A DNA stretch of 64,000 bases from Amycolatopsis thermoflava N1165 (GTDB taxonomy: Bacteria > Actinomycetota > Actinomycetes > Mycobacteriales > Pseudonocardiaceae): positions 4,735,219 through 4,799,218 of the forward strand of contig NZ_KI421511.1 in assembly GCF_000473265.1 (NCBI RefSeq), given 5' to 3'. The position numbers and the translations under genes are program-made. Within the stretch, counting starts at the first letter, position 1. Each line of letters opens with the position of its first letter. The notes under the pieces were generated by a model that searched no databases, was not told the origin of the DNA, and saw only the letters and a program-made list of their open reading frames with translations. Positions 7,342 to 62,530 of the stretch are shown piece by piece.

Positions 7342-7655
7342 CGCGAATCGCCACGGCGGTGGCGGGAACGCGCGGTGCCTGCGGCAGCGGGGGCTGCCGT
7401 TGCCCTACGGATAGACAGCCTCTCGCGCACCCCGGCCTGATCCGGGAACAGCGCCCGAATCACCGCGGCGGTGACGGGAACGCCTGGGCGCCTGCGGTGG
7501 CGGGAACGCGCGGCACCCGCGGCAGCGGGGGCTGCCGTTGCCCTGCGGATTGACGGCCTCTCGCGCACCCCGGCCTGATCCGGGATCAGCGCCCGAATCG
7601 CCGCGGCGGTGGCGGGATCGCCTGGGCGCCTGCGGTGGCGGGAACGCCCGACGTC
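7342..7655. repeat. Tandem repeat, about 138-bp unit, in convergent spacer
   Basis: The spacer between the SDR (stop 7333) and the RDD gene (stop 7691) carries two full copies and a shortened one of a GC-rich unit. Anchors: TCTCGCGCACCCCGGCCTGA starts at 7421 and again at 7559; the CGAATC...GCGGCGGT part starts at 7453 and 7591 (both 138 apart). The first copy, from about 7347, lacks roughly 24 bases. No gene is supported here. Confidence 0.85.
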
Positions 7656-7690
7656 TGGGGCGGCGGGGCTGCCGCTGATCCAGCCGGTGA

Positions 7691-10239: not shown

Positions 10240-10690
10240 GATGCGCTCGCGGCGGGCGCGAGACCGGCGGTCGCCGGCGGGAGGTCAGGGCCCGCGAGCG
10301 CCAGGCCAGCGGGCGCAGGCGCGAAGCGCTCCCAGGCGCAAGGCCAGCGGGTGCGGAACCCGCGGGCGCGAGGCCAGCGGGCGCGGGCGCGAGGCCGGCG
10401 ATCGCGGGCGCGAGGCCAGCGACCGCCAGCGCCAGGCCAGCGGGCGCAGGCGCGAAGTGGTCCCAGGCGCAAGGCCAGCGGGTGCGGAACCCGCGGGCGC
10501 GAGGCCAGCGGGCGCAGGCGCGAAGCGTCCCGGGCGCAAGGCCGGCGGGTGCGGAACCCACGAGCGCCAGGCCAGCGGGCGCAGGCACGAAGCGGTCCCA
10601 GGCGCAAGGCCGGCGGGTGCGAAACCCGCGGGCGCGAGTTCTGCGGTCGTGGGCGCGAGTTCTTGCGGTCGCAGGCGCGGGGCGGCGGGT
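10240..10690. repeat. Degenerate GC-rich tandem repeat, about 67-bp higher-order unit
   Basis: The 473-base convergent spacer after the toxin gene is almost wholly made of variants of GGGCGCGAGGCCAGC. Larger units are marked by CAAGGCC(A/G)GCGGGTGCGG at 10339, 10470, 10537 and 10605 (131, 67 and 68 bases apart). All frames look open because the sequence is low-complexity, but no start, Shine-Dalgarno or domain supports a gene. Confidence 0.85.
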
Positions 10691-18465: not shown

Positions 18466-21400
18466 CTAGGGCTGCGGCACACTGCGCAGGAGGTCGCGCA
18501 GACCGTCCGCGTCGAGCAGGTCCACCGGGCGCAGCGTGTGGTCTTCGCGGACGTAGTGGAAGGCAGCGCGCACCTTCTCCAACGGCGTTCCGGACAGCGA
18601 CGCCCAAGCCAGACGGTACGCCGCCAGCTGCACGGCGAGCGAAGCCATCCGGCCCTCCTCGGGCACCGCGCCGGTCTTCCAGTCCACGACGGTCCAGCCG
18701 CCGTCCGGGTCGGCGAACACGGCATCCATGCGCCCGCGCACGGTCACGCCGTCCACCTCGGTGGAGAACGGCACCTCCACCTCGTGCGGAGTGCGGGCCG
18801 CCCATGCGCTCCGGTCGAAGGCCTCCTGCAACGCTTCGAGTTCGTCGTCGCCGGCCTCGTCCGGGTCGGCGGCGCCGGGCAGCTCGTCGAGGTCGAACAG
18901 GCGGTCGCCGGCGAAGCGGCGCTCCAGCCAGCCGTGGAAGGCGGTACCGCGGCGGGCGAACGTGTTGGGCGGCACCGGCAGCGGGCGGCGCAGGCGGCGG
19001 GCCAGCCCGGCCGGGTCCGCGGCGAGCTCGACGAGCTGGCTCACCGACAGGTGGTCCGGCAGGGCGACCTGCTCGGCCGTGCCGCTGCGCTTGGCGAACT
19101 CGGCGAGCAGCACGTCGGTGTCGGCGATCCAGCCGTCCGGGTCGTCCTCGTCCGTCTCCTCGACCTCACCCTCGGCCAGCGCGGTGCGCACCAGGTCGGC
19201 GCCCTCGTGCACGGCGTCGCGGCGGCCGGTCAGCGGGTCGGACGGCCACTGCGCCGACCGGGCCTGGCTGACCAGCGGGTTCTCCTCGTCGGCAGGCGGC
19301 TCATCGGCCCAGACGGCGACCTTGCCGACGCCCTCCTTCGCGAGTTCGCCGACCTCGACCAGGAAGTCCGACGGGCCCTTCGGCCGTGCGCTGGTTTCGT
19401 TCCACCAGTGCCCGGAGACGATGAGGGCGCGCTCGGAGCGGGTCAGCGCGACGTAGCAGAGGCGGCGTTCCTCCTCCGCCTCGCGCTCGGCGAAGTCCTG
19501 CTCGTGGATCTCGAAGGCCTCGATGACCTCCTTGCGGTCCATGCCGTCGGACACACGCAGCTTCGGCAGGTCCTCGGAGTCGCCGCGCAGCGCGGCGGGC
19601 AGCGACGTGACCGTGCGCAGCCACGACGAGGACCGGCGCTTGTTCGGGAAGACCTCGCGCGCCAGGTGCGGCACGGCGACGACCTCCCACTCCAGGCCCT
19701 TCGCGGAGTGGACGGTCAGCACCTGCACCCGGTCCGGCACCACCTCGACCTCGCCCGGGGTGAGGCCGTCCTCGGCGTGCGCGGCGGTGGCGAGGTAGTC
19801 CACGAAGGACATCAGCGTGGCGGTGGGCGAGGTCTCGGCGAAGTCGGTGACCACGTCGGCGAACGCGTCCAGGTGGGCGCGGCGGGCGCTGCCGGGGCGG
19901 GCCTGGGCTTCGACGTCCAGCAGCATGGTCCGCTCCACGTCGGCGACCAGCTCGGGCAGCGACTGGTCCAGCCGACGGCGCAGCGCGGCGAGCTCGTGGC
20001 CCAGTTCCCGGATCCGGCGGTAGCCCTCCGGCGAGTAGCGCTTGGGGTCACCCGGATCGTCCAGCGCGTCGATCAGGCCGGTCTGCTCGGCGCGTTCGGC
20101 GAACAGGTCGTCCACCTTGGACTCTTCGGTGGGCGGGGGCGCGGAGATCTCGTTGGCGCGCCGCCACAACGCGGCCAGGTCGGCGGCCGCGAGCCGCCAG
20201 CGGGCGCCGGTGAGCAGGCGGGCGGCGGCGGTTCCCGCCAGGGGGTCGGCGAGGACGCGCAGAGTGGCGACGAGGTCGGCCACCTCGGGTTCGTCGAGGA
20301 GCCCGCCGAGACCGACGACCTCGACCGGCAACCCGCGGGCCCGCAGCTCGGCCGCGATCGGGGCCATGTCGGCGCGGCGGCGGACGAGGACGGCGGCGGT
20401 GGGCGGGGCGCCGTGCTCGGCCTGGTGGGCGAACCACCTCCGCGCCAGGGCGTCGGCGACCCACTCGCGTTCGGTCCGGATGTCCGGCAGCAGGGCGACC
20501 TCGATGTCGGCGGGCGGCGCGCCGTCGCGGGCGCGGAGCCGTTCGACGCCGAGGCCGCGCTGCCGCAGCGGCTCGGCGATGCCGTTGGCGAGGACGAGGA
20601 CTTCGGCGGGGTTGCGGAAACTGGTGAGCAGGCCGTACTCGCGGGCGGGTTCCAGGCCGGGGCGCGGGAAGTCGGTGGTGAAGCGGGGCAGGTTGGCCGC
20701 GCTCGCGCCGCGCCAGCCGTAGATGGCCTGCGCGGGGTCGCCGACCGCGGTGACCGGCAGCGGTTCGTTCTCGACGCCGCCGAACAGGGCGCGCAGCAGG
20801 ATGCGCTGCGCGTGGCCGGTGTCCTGGTACTCGTCGAGGAGAACGGCGCCGTAGCGGGCGCGTTCGCCCTCCGCGACCGCCGGGTGGTTGTCGGCGAGCG
20901 TCGCGGCCAGTGACATCTGGTCGGCGAAGTCGAGCGCGCCCTCGGCCCGTTTGCGGCGCTGGTACTCCTCGATCAGCGGGATGAGCGAGAGGCGGAACTT
21001 CTGCGCGGCGACGATGTCGGTGAGCGACTTCGGCATGGCGGCGCGCTGGCCCTTGGCGCGCGGGGCTCGTTCGATGAGGTCGCAGAGCCAGCGCGTGTAG
21101 TCGGCGAGTTTTTCTTCGGTGACCAGGTGTTCGCCGAGTTCGCCGGTGAGGGCGAGCAGTTGCGCGGTGACCGAGGCCGGGACGCGGTCGGTGTCCAGGT
21201 CCTCGTCCCAGGTGGAGACCACGCGGTGGGCGAGCTGCCAGGAGCTGGTCTCGGAGAGGAGGCGGACGCCGGGCTGGACGGGCAGGCGGAGGCCGTGCTC
21301 GGCGAGGAGGCGGCCGGCGTAGGCGTGGTAGGTGAGGACGGTCGGTTCCCCGGCGACCACCGCGGCCCGGCGCGCGCCGCCCGGGTCGAGGCGGTCGAGG

Positions 21401-21684
21401 AGGCCCGAGCCGGCGAGGCGGCGCAGGCGGGCGCGGACGCGGTCGGCGAGCTGGCGGGCGGCCTTGCGGGTGAACGTGAGGCCCAGGACGCGCTCCGGGG
21501 TGACGAACCCGTTGGCGACGAGCCAGACGACCCGGGCGGCCATGGTCTCGGTCTTACCGGCCCCGGCCCCCGCGACGACCAGCGCGGGCTCGATGGGCGC
21601 CGCGATGACCGCCGCCTGCTCGGGGGTGGGCGGATGGAGGCCGAGCGCGTGGGCGACTTCAGCTGGGGAGGCGATCTCGGTCAT
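18466..21684 (-). CDS. adnB: AdnB, ATP-dependent helicase-nuclease subunit
   Basis: 1072 residues. AdnAB is the mycobacterial-type motor-nuclease that resects DNA double-strand breaks. UvrD-like motor motifs are intact: Walker A AGAGAGKT (38-45), motif Ia FTRKAA, motif II LLDEYQDT (near 275), motif III GDPAQAIYGWRGA, motif V VHSAKGLEW and motif VI YVALTRSERAL. The C-terminal RecB-type nuclease has GRMDAVFADPDGGWTVVDWK..G with the catalytic Asp and Lys near 985-1000 and a Q...Y element after it. The ATG overlaps the stop of a small repeat ORF (ATGA). In mycobacteria AdnB is the lead motor. Confidence 0.95.
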   Translation of the reverse strand: MTEIASPAEVAHALGLHPPTPEQAAVIAAPIEPALVVAGAGAGKTETMAARVVWLVANGFVTPERVLGLTFTRKAARQLADRVRARLRRLAGSGLLDRLDPGGARRAAVVAGEPTVLTYHAYAGRLLAEHGLRLPVQPGVRLLSETSSWQLAHRVVSTWDEDLDTDRVPASVTAQLLALTGELGEHLVTEEKLADYTRWLCDLIERAPRAKGQRAAMPKSLTDIVAAQKFRLSLIPLIEEYQRRKRAEGALDFADQMSLAATLADNHPAVAEGERARYGAVLLDEYQDTGHAQRILLRALFGGVENEPLPVTAVGDPAQAIYGWRGASAANLPRFTTDFPRPGLEPAREYGLLTSFRNPAEVLVLANGIAEPLRQRGLGVERLRARDGAPPADIEVALLPDIRTEREWVADALARRWFAHQAEHGAPPTAAVLVRRRADMAPIAAELRARGLPVEVVGLGGLLDEPEVADLVATLRVLADPLAGTAAARLLTGARWRLAAADLAALWRRANEISAPPPTEESKVDDLFAERAEQTGLIDALDDPGDPKRYSPEGYRRIRELGHELAALRRRLDQSLPELVADVERTMLLDVEAQARPGSARRAHLDAFADVVTDFAETSPTATLMSFVDYLATAAHAEDGLTPGEVEVVPDRVQVLTVHSAKGLEWEVVAVPHLAREVFPNKRRSSSWLRTVTSLPAALRGDSEDLPKLRVSDGMDRKEVIEAFEIHEQDFAEREAEEERRLCYVALTRSERALIVSGHWWNETSARPKGPSDFLVEVGELAKEGVGKVAVWADEPPADEENPLVSQARSAQWPSDPLTGRRDAVHEGADLVRTALAEGEVEETDEDDPDGWIADTDVLLAEFAKRSGTAEQVALPDHLSVSQLVELAADPAGLARRLRRPLPVPPNTFARRGTAFHGWLERRFAGDRLFDLDELPGAADPDEAGDDELEALQEAFDRSAWAARTPHEVEVPFSTEVDGVTVRGRMDAVFADPDGGWTVVDWKTGAVPEEGRMASLAVQLAAYRLAWASLSGTPLEKVRAAFHYVREDHTLRPVDLLDADGLRDLLRSVPQP

Positions 21685-21974
21685 TGGAGTGCGGGTTCGG
21701 CTCGGTTGACGGGATCGGCGGGTTCGGCCCGGCCAGCCGGACCGGCCCAGCCAGAGAGTCCGGCCCGACCAGCCGGATCGGCGGGTTCGGCCCGGTCGGC
21801 GGGTTCGGCCCAGCCAGAGGGTCCGGCCCGACCAGCCGGATCGGCGGGTTCGGCCCGGTCGGCGGGTTCGGCCCAGCCGGAAAGTCCGGCCCGACCAGCC
21901 GGATCGGCGGGTTCGGCCCGGTCGGCGGGTTCGGCCCAGCCAGAATGTTCGGCCCGGGCGGCGGGTTCGGTCAT
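21681..21974 (-). CDS. Small Pro/Ala/Glu repeat ORF between adnA and adnB (expression uncertain)
   Basis: 97 codons from ATG 21974, 38 bases after adnA stops. It starts MTEPAARAEHSGW and then repeats a 21-residue unit (AEPADRAEPADPAGRAGLSG plus W) three times, ending NRAEPALQ. Its stop overlaps the adnB start (ATGA). The DNA unit is exactly 63 bp, a multiple of three, so the frame is preserved whatever the copy number. No domain is recognised. It may be a linker peptide whose translation couples adnA to adnB, or an accidental frame through a minisatellite. Confidence 0.4.
   Translation of the reverse strand: MTEPAARAEHSGWAEPADRAEPADPAGRAGLSGWAEPADRAEPADPAGRAGPSGWAEPADRAEPADPAGRAGLSGWAGPAGRAEPADPVNRAEPALQ
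21720..21969. repeat. 63-bp minisatellite between adnA and adnB
   Basis: Four near-identical units. The anchor CAGCC(A/G)GA starts at 21748, 21811, 21874 and 21937, exactly 63 bases apart each time. Inside each unit the motif GGCGGGTTCGGCCC recurs, giving a smaller 15-21 base substructure. The middle copies differ at only a few positions. Confidence 0.92.
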
Positions 21975-22012
21975 GGGGCGGCCCCCAGGCTGGCGGGAGT
22001 TGGAAAGGATCC

Positions 22013-25000
22013 TCACGGGCCTGTCACCTGCCTGCCCTCCGGGCGCAGCGGGCACGATCCCTTCGCCGGGCAGCGGTCGCAGTCCGGGTTTTCCGTCGCG
22101 TCGTACGAGGGGCCCGTCGCGGAGGCCGCCACCTTTCGCACCAGCTCCAGCCACTCGCGGCCGCTCTCGTCGTCCAGCGGGGGCTGCTCCCGCACCGTCG
22201 CGCCGGTCTTGTTGTGCGCCTTCGCCAGGTACACCAGCTTCGCGCCGCCCGGTCGCTTCCCACCGCCGAACGCGCCCAGCAGCACGGACAACTGGTACGC
22301 CGCCAGCTGCGGGTTCAGCTCGGCGTCCGCGGCGCTCACCGCGTTCTTCCCGGTCTTCAGGTCGACGATCACCGGCCGGCCCTCGGCGTCGTGCTCCAGG
22401 CGGTCCACGCGGCCGCGCAGCTTGACCAGCAGACCGTCACCACCGACCGGCAGCTCCACCTCGATGTCCTGCTCGATCCCCATCTGCTGCAGCTCGTGCC
22501 GCGAATTGTGCAGCCAGGTCAGGAAGTTGCGCACCATCTGCTCGACCCGGTTGCGTTCCCGCCGCGAGAACCACGGCGCACCGGCGTCGACCTTCGCCCA
22601 CGCGTCGTCCAACGCGCGGCGCAGGCCCTCGTCGTCCATGCCGTCCGCGGCGGCCTGCGCCAGCTCGTGCACCAGCGTCCCGGTGATCGCCGCCAGCTGG
22701 GCCGGGTCGGCGCCACCGTGCCGTTCGATCAGCCACCGCAACGGGCACTTCTTCAACGTGTCCACAGTGGACGGCGAAATCCGGATCACGTCGCCCTCGC
22801 CGTAGAGCGGGGTGTCCGTCGACGTCTCCACCAGGCCGTACCAGGAATCCGGGTGCGCGCCGGGCACCCCGGCCCGCGCCAGCCGCGCCAGCTGCCGCGC
22901 CGCCCGCGCCCGCCGGTCCGGCGGCACCTCCGGGTCGCACACCGCGCGCCGCAGGTCGCCGACCAGCTCGGCCAGCACCAGCGACCGGCCGGGTGGCTTG
23001 ACCCGCGAGTCCAGCCCGGACTCGTCCGCGCTGTTGGCCTCCAGGTCGTCGACGAACCGCGACGGCTGCTCGTCCTCCCCGATCACCGCGCTCACCAGCA
23101 GCGTCCGCTTCGCCCGGCCGAGCGCCAGGTAGAACAGCCGCCGCTCCTCGGCGAGGATCGGCGCCGTCGCGGACACCGTCTCCTCCTCCAGCCCGGAGAG
23201 CAGGTCCACCAGTCGCTCGACGCCGAGCAGCGACCCGCGCAGCCGCAGGTCCGGCCAGCTGCCCTCCTGCACGTTCGCCACCGCGACGACCGTCCACTCG
23301 CGACCGGCCGCGCCGTGCGCGGTCAGCATCGACACGCCCTCGCCGCGCATCGCCACCGGGGCGAGGCTGTCGCCCGCGATGTTCTGCGACGACAGGTAGT
23401 CCGCGAACGCCGCCACGCTCGCCTTCGGCAACCGGTCGACGTAGTTGCCCGCGGCGTGGAACAGCGCCACCACCGCGTCCAGGTCGCGGTCGGCCTGCGC
23501 GCCCAGCGTGCCGCCGCGGCCGGACAGCCGCACCCACCGCTTCTGCAGGCCGCTCTCCCGCCACACGTCCCACAGGACCTGCTCGACCCCGGCGCCCCGG
23601 GCGATCGCCTCGCGGGCGACCGCGATCAGCCCGCCGACCCGGCGGATCGGCGCCGCCTCGGCCTCGGCCAGTCCGCCGAGCTTGTCGTTGTCCCGCAACA
23701 CTTCCACGAGCAGCTCGTCGCTCGACCGCTCACCGCCGCCTGCCAGCTCCAGCCGCCGCAGACCGCGCCGCATCCGGCGCAGCGCCAGCGGATCGGCGCC
23801 GCCGAGCGGGGACGCCAGCAGCATCTCGGCGGTGTCGACGTCCAGCAGCCCGGGATCGCTCGCCACCCGCAGGACCGCGAGCAGTGGCCGGACCGCGGGC
23901 TGGCGGGCCAGCGGCAGCTCGTCGGCGGCCGACGCGATCGGCACGCCCGCGGCACGCAACGCCCGCTGCAGCACGGGGAACGACCGTCCCGGCGAGCGCA
24001 CCAGCACGGCCATCTCCGACCACGGCACGCCGTCGATGAGGTGCGCGCGGCGCAACTGGTCGGCGACCCAGCTCGCCTCGGCGGACGGGGTCGGCAGCAA
24101 CCGGACCTTGACCTCACCCTCTTCGGACGACGGGTCGACCTCGATCGCGCGGTGCCGCTGCGCGCCCGGCAGGGTCGCGCCGAGCTTCGTCACCGCCTCG
24201 TGCACGGCCAGGCTCAGCCGGTGGGTCCTGGTCAGGGTCACCGTGCGGCCGCCGTCGGCGTCGGCCCGTGTGAGCAGGCCGGGGTCGGCGCCGCGGAAGG
24301 AGAAGATCGCCTGGTCCGGGTCGCCGGTGACGACGAAGTCCTCGGCCGCCGTGCCGAGCAGCCGCAGCAGGCGGAACTGCAGGTGGTCCAGGTGCTGGGC
24401 GTCGTCGACGAACACGTGCCTGATCCGCGCCTGCTCGCGCGCCAGCAGGTCGGGGTCGCCCTCCAGCTCGACGAGCGCGCTCGCGACCAGCTCAGCCGCG
24501 TCCAGCGCGGGCGAACCGGGCGCGCCGAGGGCGTTGCCGCCCGCCCCCTGCAGGACGGTGACCTCCTCGTACTGCCGCCAGAACACCCCGGCCGCGACCC
24601 ACTCCGGACGGTCCTTGCGCCGCCCCAGCTTGACCAGGTCCTCCGGGCCGAGGCCACGCTCGGCGGCCCGCAGCAGCAGGTCCCGCAGCTCCTCGGCGAA
24701 GCCGGGCACGGCCAGCGCCGGCCGCAGCTGCTCGGGCCAGTCCGGCGCGCCCTCCGCGAGGTCGCCTGCCAGCAGTTCGCGGACCACGACGTCCTGCTCC
24801 GGGCTGGACAGCAGCCGCGGCGCCGGCACGTCCTGCAGCCCGGCCTGCAGGCGCAGCAGGGAGAACGCGTACGAGTGGACGGTGCGCACGATCGGCTCGC
24901 GGATCGTGCGGGGCACGCCGTCACCCGCGGTCACGCGGCGGGTGATCTCGGCGCGCAGGGCGTTGGCGGCGCGGCGGGACGCGGTGAGCACCAGCAGGCT

Positions 25001-25213
25001 CTCCGGATCGGCGCCGCCGGAGATGCGGGCCGCCGCCGCGCTCGTGATCAAGGTGGTCTTGCCGGTGCCCGGTCCACCGAGGACCCGGACGAACCCGCGG
25101 GGCGCCGCCAGCACCGCCCGCGCGTCGGCGTCCCAGCGTTCCGGGCGCGGCTCGGGGACGGGCAGCCGAACCAGCCGCGCGCCCGCCCGGGACCGGGTGC
25201 CCTCTCCGCTCAC
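22013..25213 (-). CDS. adnA: AdnA, helicase-nuclease subunit with Fe-S-type nuclease domain
   Basis: 1066 residues from GTG 25213. Partner of AdnB. Walker A is GGPGTGKT (46-53); motif II reads VFVDDAQHLD, Asp replacing the usual Glu; motif III GDPDQAIFSFRGA; motif VI is weak (FYLALGRAKRTL). The C-terminal nuclease has VIVDLKTGK (near 950). Four cysteines placed as in Fe-S-clasped AddB-type nucleases are visible: KKCPLRW (near 822) and DCDRCPAKGSC (near 1044-1053). The weak motor motifs fit a subunit that is not the main translocase. It is divergent from the alkyltransferase-like gene 67 bases away. Confidence 0.95.
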   Translation of the reverse strand: MSGEGTRSRAGARLVRLPVPEPRPERWDADARAVLAAPRGFVRVLGGPGTGKTTLITSAAAARISGGADPESLLVLTASRRAANALRAEITRRVTAGDGVPRTIREPIVRTVHSYAFSLLRLQAGLQDVPAPRLLSSPEQDVVVRELLAGDLAEGAPDWPEQLRPALAVPGFAEELRDLLLRAAERGLGPEDLVKLGRRKDRPEWVAAGVFWRQYEEVTVLQGAGGNALGAPGSPALDAAELVASALVELEGDPDLLAREQARIRHVFVDDAQHLDHLQFRLLRLLGTAAEDFVVTGDPDQAIFSFRGADPGLLTRADADGGRTVTLTRTHRLSLAVHEAVTKLGATLPGAQRHRAIEVDPSSEEGEVKVRLLPTPSAEASWVADQLRRAHLIDGVPWSEMAVLVRSPGRSFPVLQRALRAAGVPIASAADELPLARQPAVRPLLAVLRVASDPGLLDVDTAEMLLASPLGGADPLALRRMRRGLRRLELAGGGERSSDELLVEVLRDNDKLGGLAEAEAAPIRRVGGLIAVAREAIARGAGVEQVLWDVWRESGLQKRWVRLSGRGGTLGAQADRDLDAVVALFHAAGNYVDRLPKASVAAFADYLSSQNIAGDSLAPVAMRGEGVSMLTAHGAAGREWTVVAVANVQEGSWPDLRLRGSLLGVERLVDLLSGLEEETVSATAPILAEERRLFYLALGRAKRTLLVSAVIGEDEQPSRFVDDLEANSADESGLDSRVKPPGRSLVLAELVGDLRRAVCDPEVPPDRRARAARQLARLARAGVPGAHPDSWYGLVETSTDTPLYGEGDVIRISPSTVDTLKKCPLRWLIERHGGADPAQLAAITGTLVHELAQAAADGMDDEGLRRALDDAWAKVDAGAPWFSRRERNRVEQMVRNFLTWLHNSRHELQQMGIEQDIEVELPVGGDGLLVKLRGRVDRLEHDAEGRPVIVDLKTGKNAVSAADAELNPQLAAYQLSVLLGAFGGGKRPGGAKLVYLAKAHNKTGATVREQPPLDDESGREWLELVRKVAASATGPSYDATENPDCDRCPAKGSCPLRPEGRQVTGP

Positions 25214-32899: not shown

Positions 32900-33225
32900 G
32901 CGCGCCCGGCGTAAGCGGGCCGGGCGCGACGCGGCGGATTGGCCGGGGCAGCGTGGCGGATTGGGCAGGCGCGGACAAGCCACGGTTGGCCAGGGCGCGG
33001 ACCAGGCCACGGCTAGGCGCGGCGCGAGCAGGCCGCGCGCACGCCGGATTGGCACGGCGCGACCCGGCGGATTGGCACGGCGCGGACAAGCCACGGTTGG
33101 CCAGGGCGCGGACAGGCCGCGGCTGGGCGCGGCGCGGCGCATTGGGCAAAGCGCGGCGCGGCGGGTTGGGCAAAGCGCGGACAGGCCGCTGCCCGGCCGG
33201 ACGCGGTGAACCACCCGTGAGCTCA
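32900..33225. repeat. GC-rich tandem repeat, about 111-bp unit, in convergent spacer
   Basis: The spacer between the winged-helix gene (stop 32886) and the SDR gene (stop 33243) holds degenerate repeats. GCGGACAAGCCACGG starts at 32971 and 33082 (111 apart), followed in both by TTGGCCAGGGCGCGGAC. Shorter variants such as GGCGGATTGG and GGTTGGGCAAAGCGCGG recur around them. No gene is supported. Confidence 0.8.
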
Positions 33226-61859: not shown

Positions 61860-62530
61860 ACCGCGAACCACGGGTTCCGGCCAGCCACCACGCCCGCAGC
61901 AGCACTGCGAAGAGCCCCATGACGCCAGCCTCAGCCCCCGATGCAGCCCTACCGCGCCGACAACCCCAAGACCTCGCCACCAGCACAGCCCGACCACCCC
62001 GGCACTCAGCCACGAGCGCAGCTCCGCCACCCCGCACCCGCCACCACCGCAGCCCTACCGCGCCAGCCCCCGGCACTCCACCACCAGCCACCGGCAGCAG
62101 GACCCTCCAGGACCTCACCACCAACAGCCCCCACGACGCCAGCCTCAGCCCCCGATACAGCCCCAACGGCGCCGGCAACCCCACGACCTCGCCACCAGCA
62201 CAGCCCAACCACCCCGGCACTCAGCCACCAGCGCAGCTCCACCACGCAGCACCCGCCACCACCGCAGCCCTACCGCACCAGCCCCCGGCACTCCACCCCC
62301 ACACCCGCAGCAGGACCCTCCAGGACCTCACCACCAACAGCCCCCCACGACGCCAGCCTCAGCCCCCGATACAGCCCCAACGGCGCCGGCAACCCCACGA
62401 CCTCGCCACCAGCACAGCCCTACCAGGCCAGCACCCCGGCACTCGGCCACTCGCACAGCACCCGCCACCACCGCAACCCCACCGCGCCAGCCCCCGGCAC
62501 TCCACCCCCACACTCGCAGCAGCAGGGCGA
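61860..62530. repeat. Tandem repeat, 214-bp unit, about three copies
   Basis: GACGCCAGCCTCAGCCCCCG starts at 61921, 62135 and 62349, exactly 214 bases apart, with high identity over the units and drift at the outer ends. The unit is C-rich on the plus strand (CACC, CCAGC motifs) and 214 is not a multiple of three, so long frames through it are not conserved and no gene is called. The rest of the 900-base spacer, 61626-61860, holds nothing recognisable. Confidence 0.92.

Follow-up and report, generated by a model that had tools for sequence, protein, structure and literature searches.

A minisatellite between adnA and adnB in Amycolatopsis thermoflava lies in an open reading frame that probably keeps the two genes translationally coupled

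Why should a tandem array lie between the two subunit genes of a DNA-break-repair enzyme, and does the reading frame that runs through it matter? We addressed this question at the adnA-adnB locus of Amycolatopsis thermoflava N1165, within a window of 64,000 nt (NZ_KI421511.1, positions 4,735,219 to 4,799,218; the window means this whole stretch, and its own numbering is used below). The upstream subunit gene, adnA (22013..25213, minus strand), encodes a UvrD-like motor and a PD-(D/E)XK nuclease (Pfam UvrD-helicase at residues 30-319 and PDDEXK_1 at residues 811-1055), and its product best matched the PDB chains 7sjr_A, 9np6_A and 6ppj_A (E down to 3e-245, residues 37-1060). The downstream subunit gene, adnB (18466..21684, minus strand), carries the Pfam domains UvrD-helicase and PDDEXK_1, and its product matched PDB chains, among them 6ppu_B and 6ppr_B, with an E value of 0 across residues 6-1070. 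With the exception of 6ppu_A, the A and B chains of 6ppj, 6ppr, 6ppu, 7sjr and 9np6 were matched nearly end to end; we take these structures to be AdnAB, three of them (6ppj, 6ppr and 6ppu) being labelled UvrD/REP helicase in the PDB table. The locus was thus assigned to AdnAB on an adjacent gene pair in which each gene has an N-terminal UvrD-like motor and a C-terminal PD-(D/E)XK nuclease, and on near full-length similarity of both proteins to chains of the solved complex. While the flanking genes correspond to that complex, the window differs from a plain AdnAB operon by the extra ORF or ORFs between the subunit genes.

The array (21712..21956, minus strand) was reported by TRF with a period of 63 bp, or 21 codons per unit, 3.9 copies, 93% matches, 0% indels and a score of 413. 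A first-pass annotation of the sequence had described its units as exactly periodic, which is right for the spacing; the units themselves differ by substitutions, and the copies are not identical. It had also placed the array in a coding frame between adnA and adnB, and this was borne out: an ORF of 97 codons runs from 21974 to 21681 on the minus strand, begins 38 nt past the adnA stop (translation MTEPAARAEHSGWAEPADRAEPADPAGRAG...PALQ*) and ends in an ATGA overlap with the adnB start (21681..21684, minus strand), both ends being confirmed by the sequence. What that annotation missed was a GTG further upstream, in a GTGA overlap with the adnA stop (22013..22016, minus strand), from which the same frame runs to the same stop over 111 codons. 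We refer to this ORF as the bridge, with a long form (21681..22016) and a short form that starts at the inner ATG (21681..21974). The 4-nt stop/start overlaps at both ends are those of a coupled gene set. Between the inner ATG and the ATGA, each frame on both strands contains at most one stop, and the two forward-frame stops sit at the extreme ends of this stretch; because the frames are nearly stop-free on both strands, the openness of the array is little evidence by itself. Since openness is cheap here and units divisible by three hold phase unaided, the argument must rest on comparison.

The adnA-adnB gene pair was present in all 19 genomes of the genus that were examined. In 10 of them the genes overlap directly by 4 nt, and the nine spaced junctions all fall in one clade (support 99/99), with spacers of 19, 52, 58, 94, 328 (the window), 406, 472, 808 and 1036 nt. 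Every one of these lengths is 1 mod 3, and every spacer holds an ORF that runs from an ATGA or GTGA overlap at the adnA stop to an ATGA overlap with adnB, over 8 to 347 codons. Phase alone would have a probability of (1/3)^8 = 1.5e-4 if the lengths were independent. Clear spacer similarity among the nine was found only within the group formed by the window and loci L008 and L009 and within the pair L011/L012; weak matches joined L010 to L014 (126 nt at 66%, E 2e-4) and L012 to L013 (20 nt). The window and L009 are identical across 330 compared residues (140 of AdnA and 190 of AdnB), and 99.6% and 99.0% identical over longer stretches, while their spacers measure 328 and 94 nt, a difference of 234 nt or 78 codons. 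This comparison indicates that the copy number changes fast and the frame does not. Retention of the frame and both overlaps in relatives, the test of function that the first-pass annotation had proposed, was observed in the other eight clade genomes despite changes of length and sequence.

We then extended the comparison to loci from named genome contigs (the best 80 of 581 confirmed), from the genus and from the family (matches in 244 of 249 genomes; 30 loci and then 60 more). In total, 174 of 189 loci were readable and yielded 140 distinct adnA-adnB junctions, 83 with a direct overlap, always of 4 nt, and 57 spaced. Directly adjacent genes were half of what the first-pass annotation had named as speaking against its reading, and in that half it was contradicted by these 83 junctions. 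Nine of the 83 encode an AdnB whose N-terminus is 12-31 residues longer than that of the window, and in these loci extra DNA may persist as an in-frame extension. A bridge start is possible at the 35 spaced junctions where adnA ends in ATGA or GTGA (hereafter eligible), and 27 of these 35 were bridged by one or two ORFs joined through 4-nt overlaps (one link in L079 is 1 nt; L052, L204 and L238 have two bridge ORFs in series). With the same sequences placed in random frame 14.9 bridged junctions were expected (P 4.6e-7), and with shuffled spacers 8.1; an initial null, which admitted frames in which spacer and adnB are fused, was too loose (27/35 versus 13.6 expected), and the final null conditions on non-fused frames. 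When one junction was picked by hand from each cluster, and for Pseudonocardia the member that fails, 19 of 25 were bridged against 11.0 expected (P 7.5e-5). All 12 Amycolatopsis/Prauserella-like clusters were bridged (expected 6.7, P 0.0006), as were 7 of the 13 clusters from other genera (expected 4.3, P 0.044), which indicates a constraint that is clear in the relatives of the window and weak elsewhere.

The exceptions delimit this pattern. Eight eligible junctions were unbridged (L060, L061, L077, L108, L109, L203, L209 and L210). In 20 spaced loci adnA ends in TAA or TAG, and in two in CTGA, one of which (L236) is bridged via TGATG; direct coupling is, by these stop contexts, lost in all such loci, and the eight unbridged junctions and the 20 loci with TAA or TAG mean that coupling is dispensable in Lentzea, Actinokineospora and others. 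Among the 27 bridges, two from the Pseudonocardia loci L104 and L114 look like mere shadows cast by a real gene that is read in another frame; their relative L109 is unbridged. All three have an adnA-adnB gap of ~1.15-1.2 kb that seems to contain a real gene in a different frame: one position of the bridge codons has a GC of 0.91 in L104 and L114, and a 292-codon ORF in L109 ends 52 nt before adnB. The three loci were not taken as evidence, yet they are counted in the 35, as is the doubtful bridge of L207, with its 4-nt spacer. A further 20 loci at the level of the class, from 156 genomes with a match (six starting at a -4 overlap, eight spaced and six with another overlap or unclear), enter no count.

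Other junctions provided controls. In the window and 13 relatives, this region has 83 further co-directional junctions spaced by at least 40 nt; 3 of them were bridged, compared with 8 of 8 at adnA-adnB. Counting only start-compatible ends, and only junctions with a direct overlap in one genome or more, left 2 of 9 bridged. At the junction of adnB with the next gene, 4 of 19 eligible cases were bridged (Fisher 1.2e-4 versus adnA-adnB). Across 442 kb of the window's genome, 9 of 26 eligible spaced junctions were bridged, adnA-adnB included (Fisher 0.0014); the genes in these 442 kb came from a crude codon-bias caller with a preference for high GC3. Bridging of controls exceeds zero because chance often satisfies phase and openness. 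The same 442 kb held 20 arrays with a TRF score of at least 90, nine in convergent gaps, seven in co-directional gaps, four within genes and none in divergent gaps. Two of the seven strong co-directional arrays were bridged, with periods of 63 and 168 (both divisible by three); the five unbridged ones had periods of 59, 151, 61, 16 and 215, none divisible by three. In the window, three arrays lie in convergent gaps (7356-7674, 10252-10659 and 32961-33137), and a 215-bp array of 2.9 copies (61915-62522) lies within a co-directional gap of 912 nt. In eight clade genomes, those in which both of its flanking genes could be located, the latter gap measures 145-1767 nt, its upstream gene ends in TAG and none of the eight is bridged; direct overlap was seen in G003, G010 and G013 and short bridges in G012 and G014. 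This junction contrasts, as far as these gaps show, with adnA-adnB.

How ribosomes would reach adnB was addressed through the anti-Shine-Dalgarno duplex before each start. At the adnB start of the 83 direct loci the duplex had a median of -11.8 kcal/mol (range -14.0 to -4.8); random positions gave a median of -4.1 and a 10th percentile of -8.4. The adnB ATG scored -0.1 kcal/mol in the window and, in its two closest relatives, -1.2 (L008) and -0.1 (L009), which amounts to no Shine-Dalgarno, and in the window it is the earliest ATG, GTG or TTG of its open frame. The bridge start at the adnA stop scored -12.2 kcal/mol in all three; in the window the Shine-Dalgarno-like site is AGGTG (22025..22029, minus strand), inside the 3' end of adnA and upstream of the GTG at 22016. 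A G-rich Shine-Dalgarno-like site (21982..21986, minus strand) precedes the inner ATG; its duplex of -8.4 (-6.6 in L008 and -6.5 in L009) just reaches the 10th percentile seen at random positions. Before adnB at the other 25 bridged loci, 20 scored -5.8 or lower and 15 passed -8.4; weak values occurred in L079 (-0.3), L228 (-2.9), L104 (-4.0), and L114 and L207 (-4.4).

The spacer start itself resembles an adnB start, which gives some basis to the remark of the first-pass annotation that the ORF begins with MTE like AdnB. Against the adnB start contexts of L010, L013 and L014, the 20 nt that precede the inner ATG show 60-80% identity (60-65% for the window), compared with 20-35% for those that precede today's adnB start (20-30% for the window). 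Over its first 27 nt, the spacer ORF agrees with the adnB start at 22 positions in L009, at 20 in the window and at 18 in L008. By local alignment this similarity was significant only in L009 (P 0.018, versus 0.116 in the window and 0.460 in L008), and for that reason an origin of the spacer by duplication is treated here as inferred; an ungapped test of nt 9-27 gave P 0.002 in the window, 0.037 in L008 and 0 of 5000 shuffles in L009. We infer that the original start of adnB was displaced and now serves as the bridge start, and that adnB has come to depend on it.

A second junction made such an origin visible. In the window's genome (G000) the gene at C1:4370059-4370673 is followed by one at C1:4368348-4369556, transporter-like by eye, and in G009 the two overlap directly. 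The 502-nt spacer in G000 consists of tandem copies of the end of the upstream gene and the start of the downstream gene. G017 has a 337-nt spacer with copies of the downstream start, and G016 one of 433 nt with no visible origin. All three lengths are 1 mod 3, and the bridges, of 169, 114 and 146 codons, have 4-nt overlaps at both ends. The second bridge ORF of G000 (C1:4369556-4370059, represented by L267:11446-12654 and upstream) is composed of a 168-bp tandem duplication of the stop/start junction. At L310 (G011) the second junction ends in CTGA, and the upstream gene was not found at L307 and L311. When 134 orthologous junctions of G000 and G009 were compared without selection, 23 differed in length, and five of these were coupled in at least one genome. 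Three of the five keep a bridge or a direct overlap in both (502/-4, 328/94 and -4/73 nt in G000/G009); the other two are not coupled in both, one (62/-4) by an early stop in the upstream gene and one (39/40, a 1-nt difference) being bridged only in G009.

From these comparisons we proposed that the array probably lies in a bridge frame that maintains the translational coupling of adnB to adnA, with ribosomes reaching adnB by termination-reinitiation. The ancestral state, as shown by relatives, is an NTGA overlap of adnA and adnB. Extra DNA would then have entered the junction in this clade, a duplicated adnB start region being its probable source; at the second junction such duplication is visible. 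The statistical pattern in the window's relatives shows that the spacer was kept in a phase that gives an ORF from at or near the adnA stop to the ATGA at adnB. Ribosomes finishing adnA would restart on the bridge, translate the repeats and restart on adnB. The 63-bp repeats would be locally amplified filler, whose 21-codon unit could vary in copy number with the bridge intact, and the peptide would probably be a by-product, as it is unconserved and has a GC3 of 0.59-0.80. Termination-reinitiation at gene pairs with 4-nt overlaps is described by Huber et al. (2019, PMC6728339). Huber et al. (2023, PMC10666635) report that gaps of ~20 nt almost abolish reinitiation and that genes for heteromeric complexes are enriched in overlaps; the effect of gaps is why translation of a spacer would be needed here. 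With the pairs described in these papers the locus shares its ATGA/GTGA overlaps and a gene pair for a heteromeric complex; unlike them, its coupling would run through an inserted, unconserved ORF, and its final gene has no Shine-Dalgarno. As in uORF coupling and bicistronic designs, as treated in a review (PMC12548453), translation of the bridge and not its product would be the function, although this bridge has a large gene on either side and varies extremely in length, from 8 to 347 codons within the clade. The literature searched returned, among its top matches, nothing on adnA-adnB bridge ORFs or on operon repeats in Amycolatopsis, most subscription journals lying outside its scope.

Could the array instead be a neutral minisatellite, its frame open by chance in GC-rich DNA with a unit that is a multiple of three, and adnB be initiated independently of the bridge? 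The scarcity of stops in all frames across the array fits this explanation, as do the abundance of such arrays in the window's genome, the shadow bridges and the 9 of 26 eligible junctions bridged in the 442 kb; moreover, units of 9, 18 or 63 bp keep a frame without selection, and GC-rich DNA is poor in stops. Nevertheless, spacers with no detectable similarity to that of the window (L010, L013 and L014) have the same phase and ends, adnB has no Shine-Dalgarno in three genomes, the unbridged co-directional arrays have periods not divisible by three, and control junctions are seldom bridged, which leaves this explanation unlikely. Chance openness alone was rejected, the case being carried by phase and ends, which were tested against nulls, and by the Shine-Dalgarno pattern. 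The bridge might also be translated so that Rho does not stop transcription between adnA and adnB, coupled initiation being secondary. Protection from polarity would likewise need an open frame from stop to start, and polarity through untranslated RNA is stated in the review (PMC12548453); protection from polarity is a decidedly improbable account, since it leaves the missing adnB Shine-Dalgarno unexplained and since long unbridged spacers exist, such as that of L066, where adnB start candidates lie 746-803 nt past adnA and a missed gene is possible.

Roles for the repeats or their product fared less well than the coupling explanation. That the copy number of the 63-bp unit controls the AdnA:AdnB ratio or differs from cell to cell, the former a suggestion of the first-pass annotation, accords with the phase-preserving unit and with spacers of such different length in near-identical genomes; it has little chance of being right, given that other clade genomes have other spacers of other lengths and that no particular length is kept. 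The same annotation had offered a new small protein of the complex, and the open frame, the start and its Shine-Dalgarno would suit one. This proposal found no support: the window ORF has no match in Pfam or NCBIfam, the product is unconserved across the DNA of the nine clade spacers, which are largely unrelated between species, and most relatives have no bridge ORF, the genes overlapping directly in 83 of 140 junctions. In addition, GC3 is 0.59-0.80 in the five long clade spacers, against a median of 0.94 and a 1st percentile of 0.82 in called genes, a reference that comes from the caller favouring high GC3. A new AdnAB subunit was therefore rejected on its lack of a family match, low GC3 and unrelated spacers, and a functional small protein of any kind in the complex is scarcely credible. 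Finally, the array could be a DNA or RNA element in this DNA-break-repair operon, namely a recombination hotspot or Chi-like site, a promoter, a terminator or a structured RNA. The close relative L009, with its 94-nt spacer, has no such array, the window region had no Rfam match, no promoter- or terminator-like site was found in 21500-22300, and the RNA fold at the adnB start was no better than shuffles (z -0.97); the likelihood of such an element is next to negligible.

Inserts of another kind occur in operon junctions of these genomes. The -4/73 case mentioned above is a 77-nt cassette (L301:9907-9983, G009) that belongs to a dispersed family of 77-90-bp cassettes in operon junctions (L318-L337 and L340-L364), whose ORFs start MSELASES or VSELASEP. 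Cassettes were found at 25 distinct sites in 11 of the 19 genus genomes, with none in the window's genome; they were searched by their first 21 nt, and because the pattern begins DTGA it partly presupposes the start overlap. At 20 of the 25 sites they form short ORFs of 15-30 aa ending in ATGA or GTGA, at five they are fused in frame to a long ORF, and none is uncoupled; tandem copies occur. Across the order, the cassette motif was present in 18 of 150 genomes, with up to 19 sites in one (G027), and a reversed control pattern in none. Mycobacterial interspersed repetitive units (MIRUs), for which Supply et al. 1997 is reportedly the original paper, are a known system of comparable form. They are described in the review (PMC12548453) as apparently mobile mycobacterial repeats that insert at start codons, with an ORF coupled by -4 spacing and a likely minimal impact on genes. 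By its position and its coupled ORFs, the cassette family looks like a MIRU-like coupling element. The window locus resembles MIRUs in having a repeat-bearing insert at a gene start and an ORF joined to adnB by -4 spacing; unlike them, its array is not dispersed, differs between species and looks locally duplicated.

A broader and more tentative possibility, which we would put somewhat below even chances, is that coupled junctions in these actinobacteria admit any DNA, be it junction duplications, minisatellites or mobile 77-90-bp cassettes, provided that it is translated as a bridge, and that adnB of this clade, its own ribosome-binding site lost, has become wholly dependent on the bridge. 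A junk-like, fast-changing peptide gene would then be effectively required for a DNA-break-repair enzyme. If the coupling explanation is right, selection for coupled synthesis of the two subunits would keep a frame open and ignore its sequence, and a class of ORFs that would otherwise be annotated as orphan genes or noncoding DNA would have an explanation, with the warning that such ORFs should not be read as new subunits of a complex. Duplication of a stop/start junction would be a route for the birth of small ORFs, and the nine lengths in nine genomes would be a natural experiment on termination-reinitiation.

Spacers were also compared with their own genomes. The window array had six matches in its 8.69-Mb genome, namely itself and five short, weak ones (E 2e-6 to 6e-4); with these five, four for G017 and one for L052, the spacer as a dispersed element was rejected. 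The 1036-nt spacer of G006 (L010:470-1490) contains repeats ~84 bp apart and has nine other partial matches in its own genome, the best with an E value of 8e-18 at 64% identity, and some dispersal of this spacer is possible.
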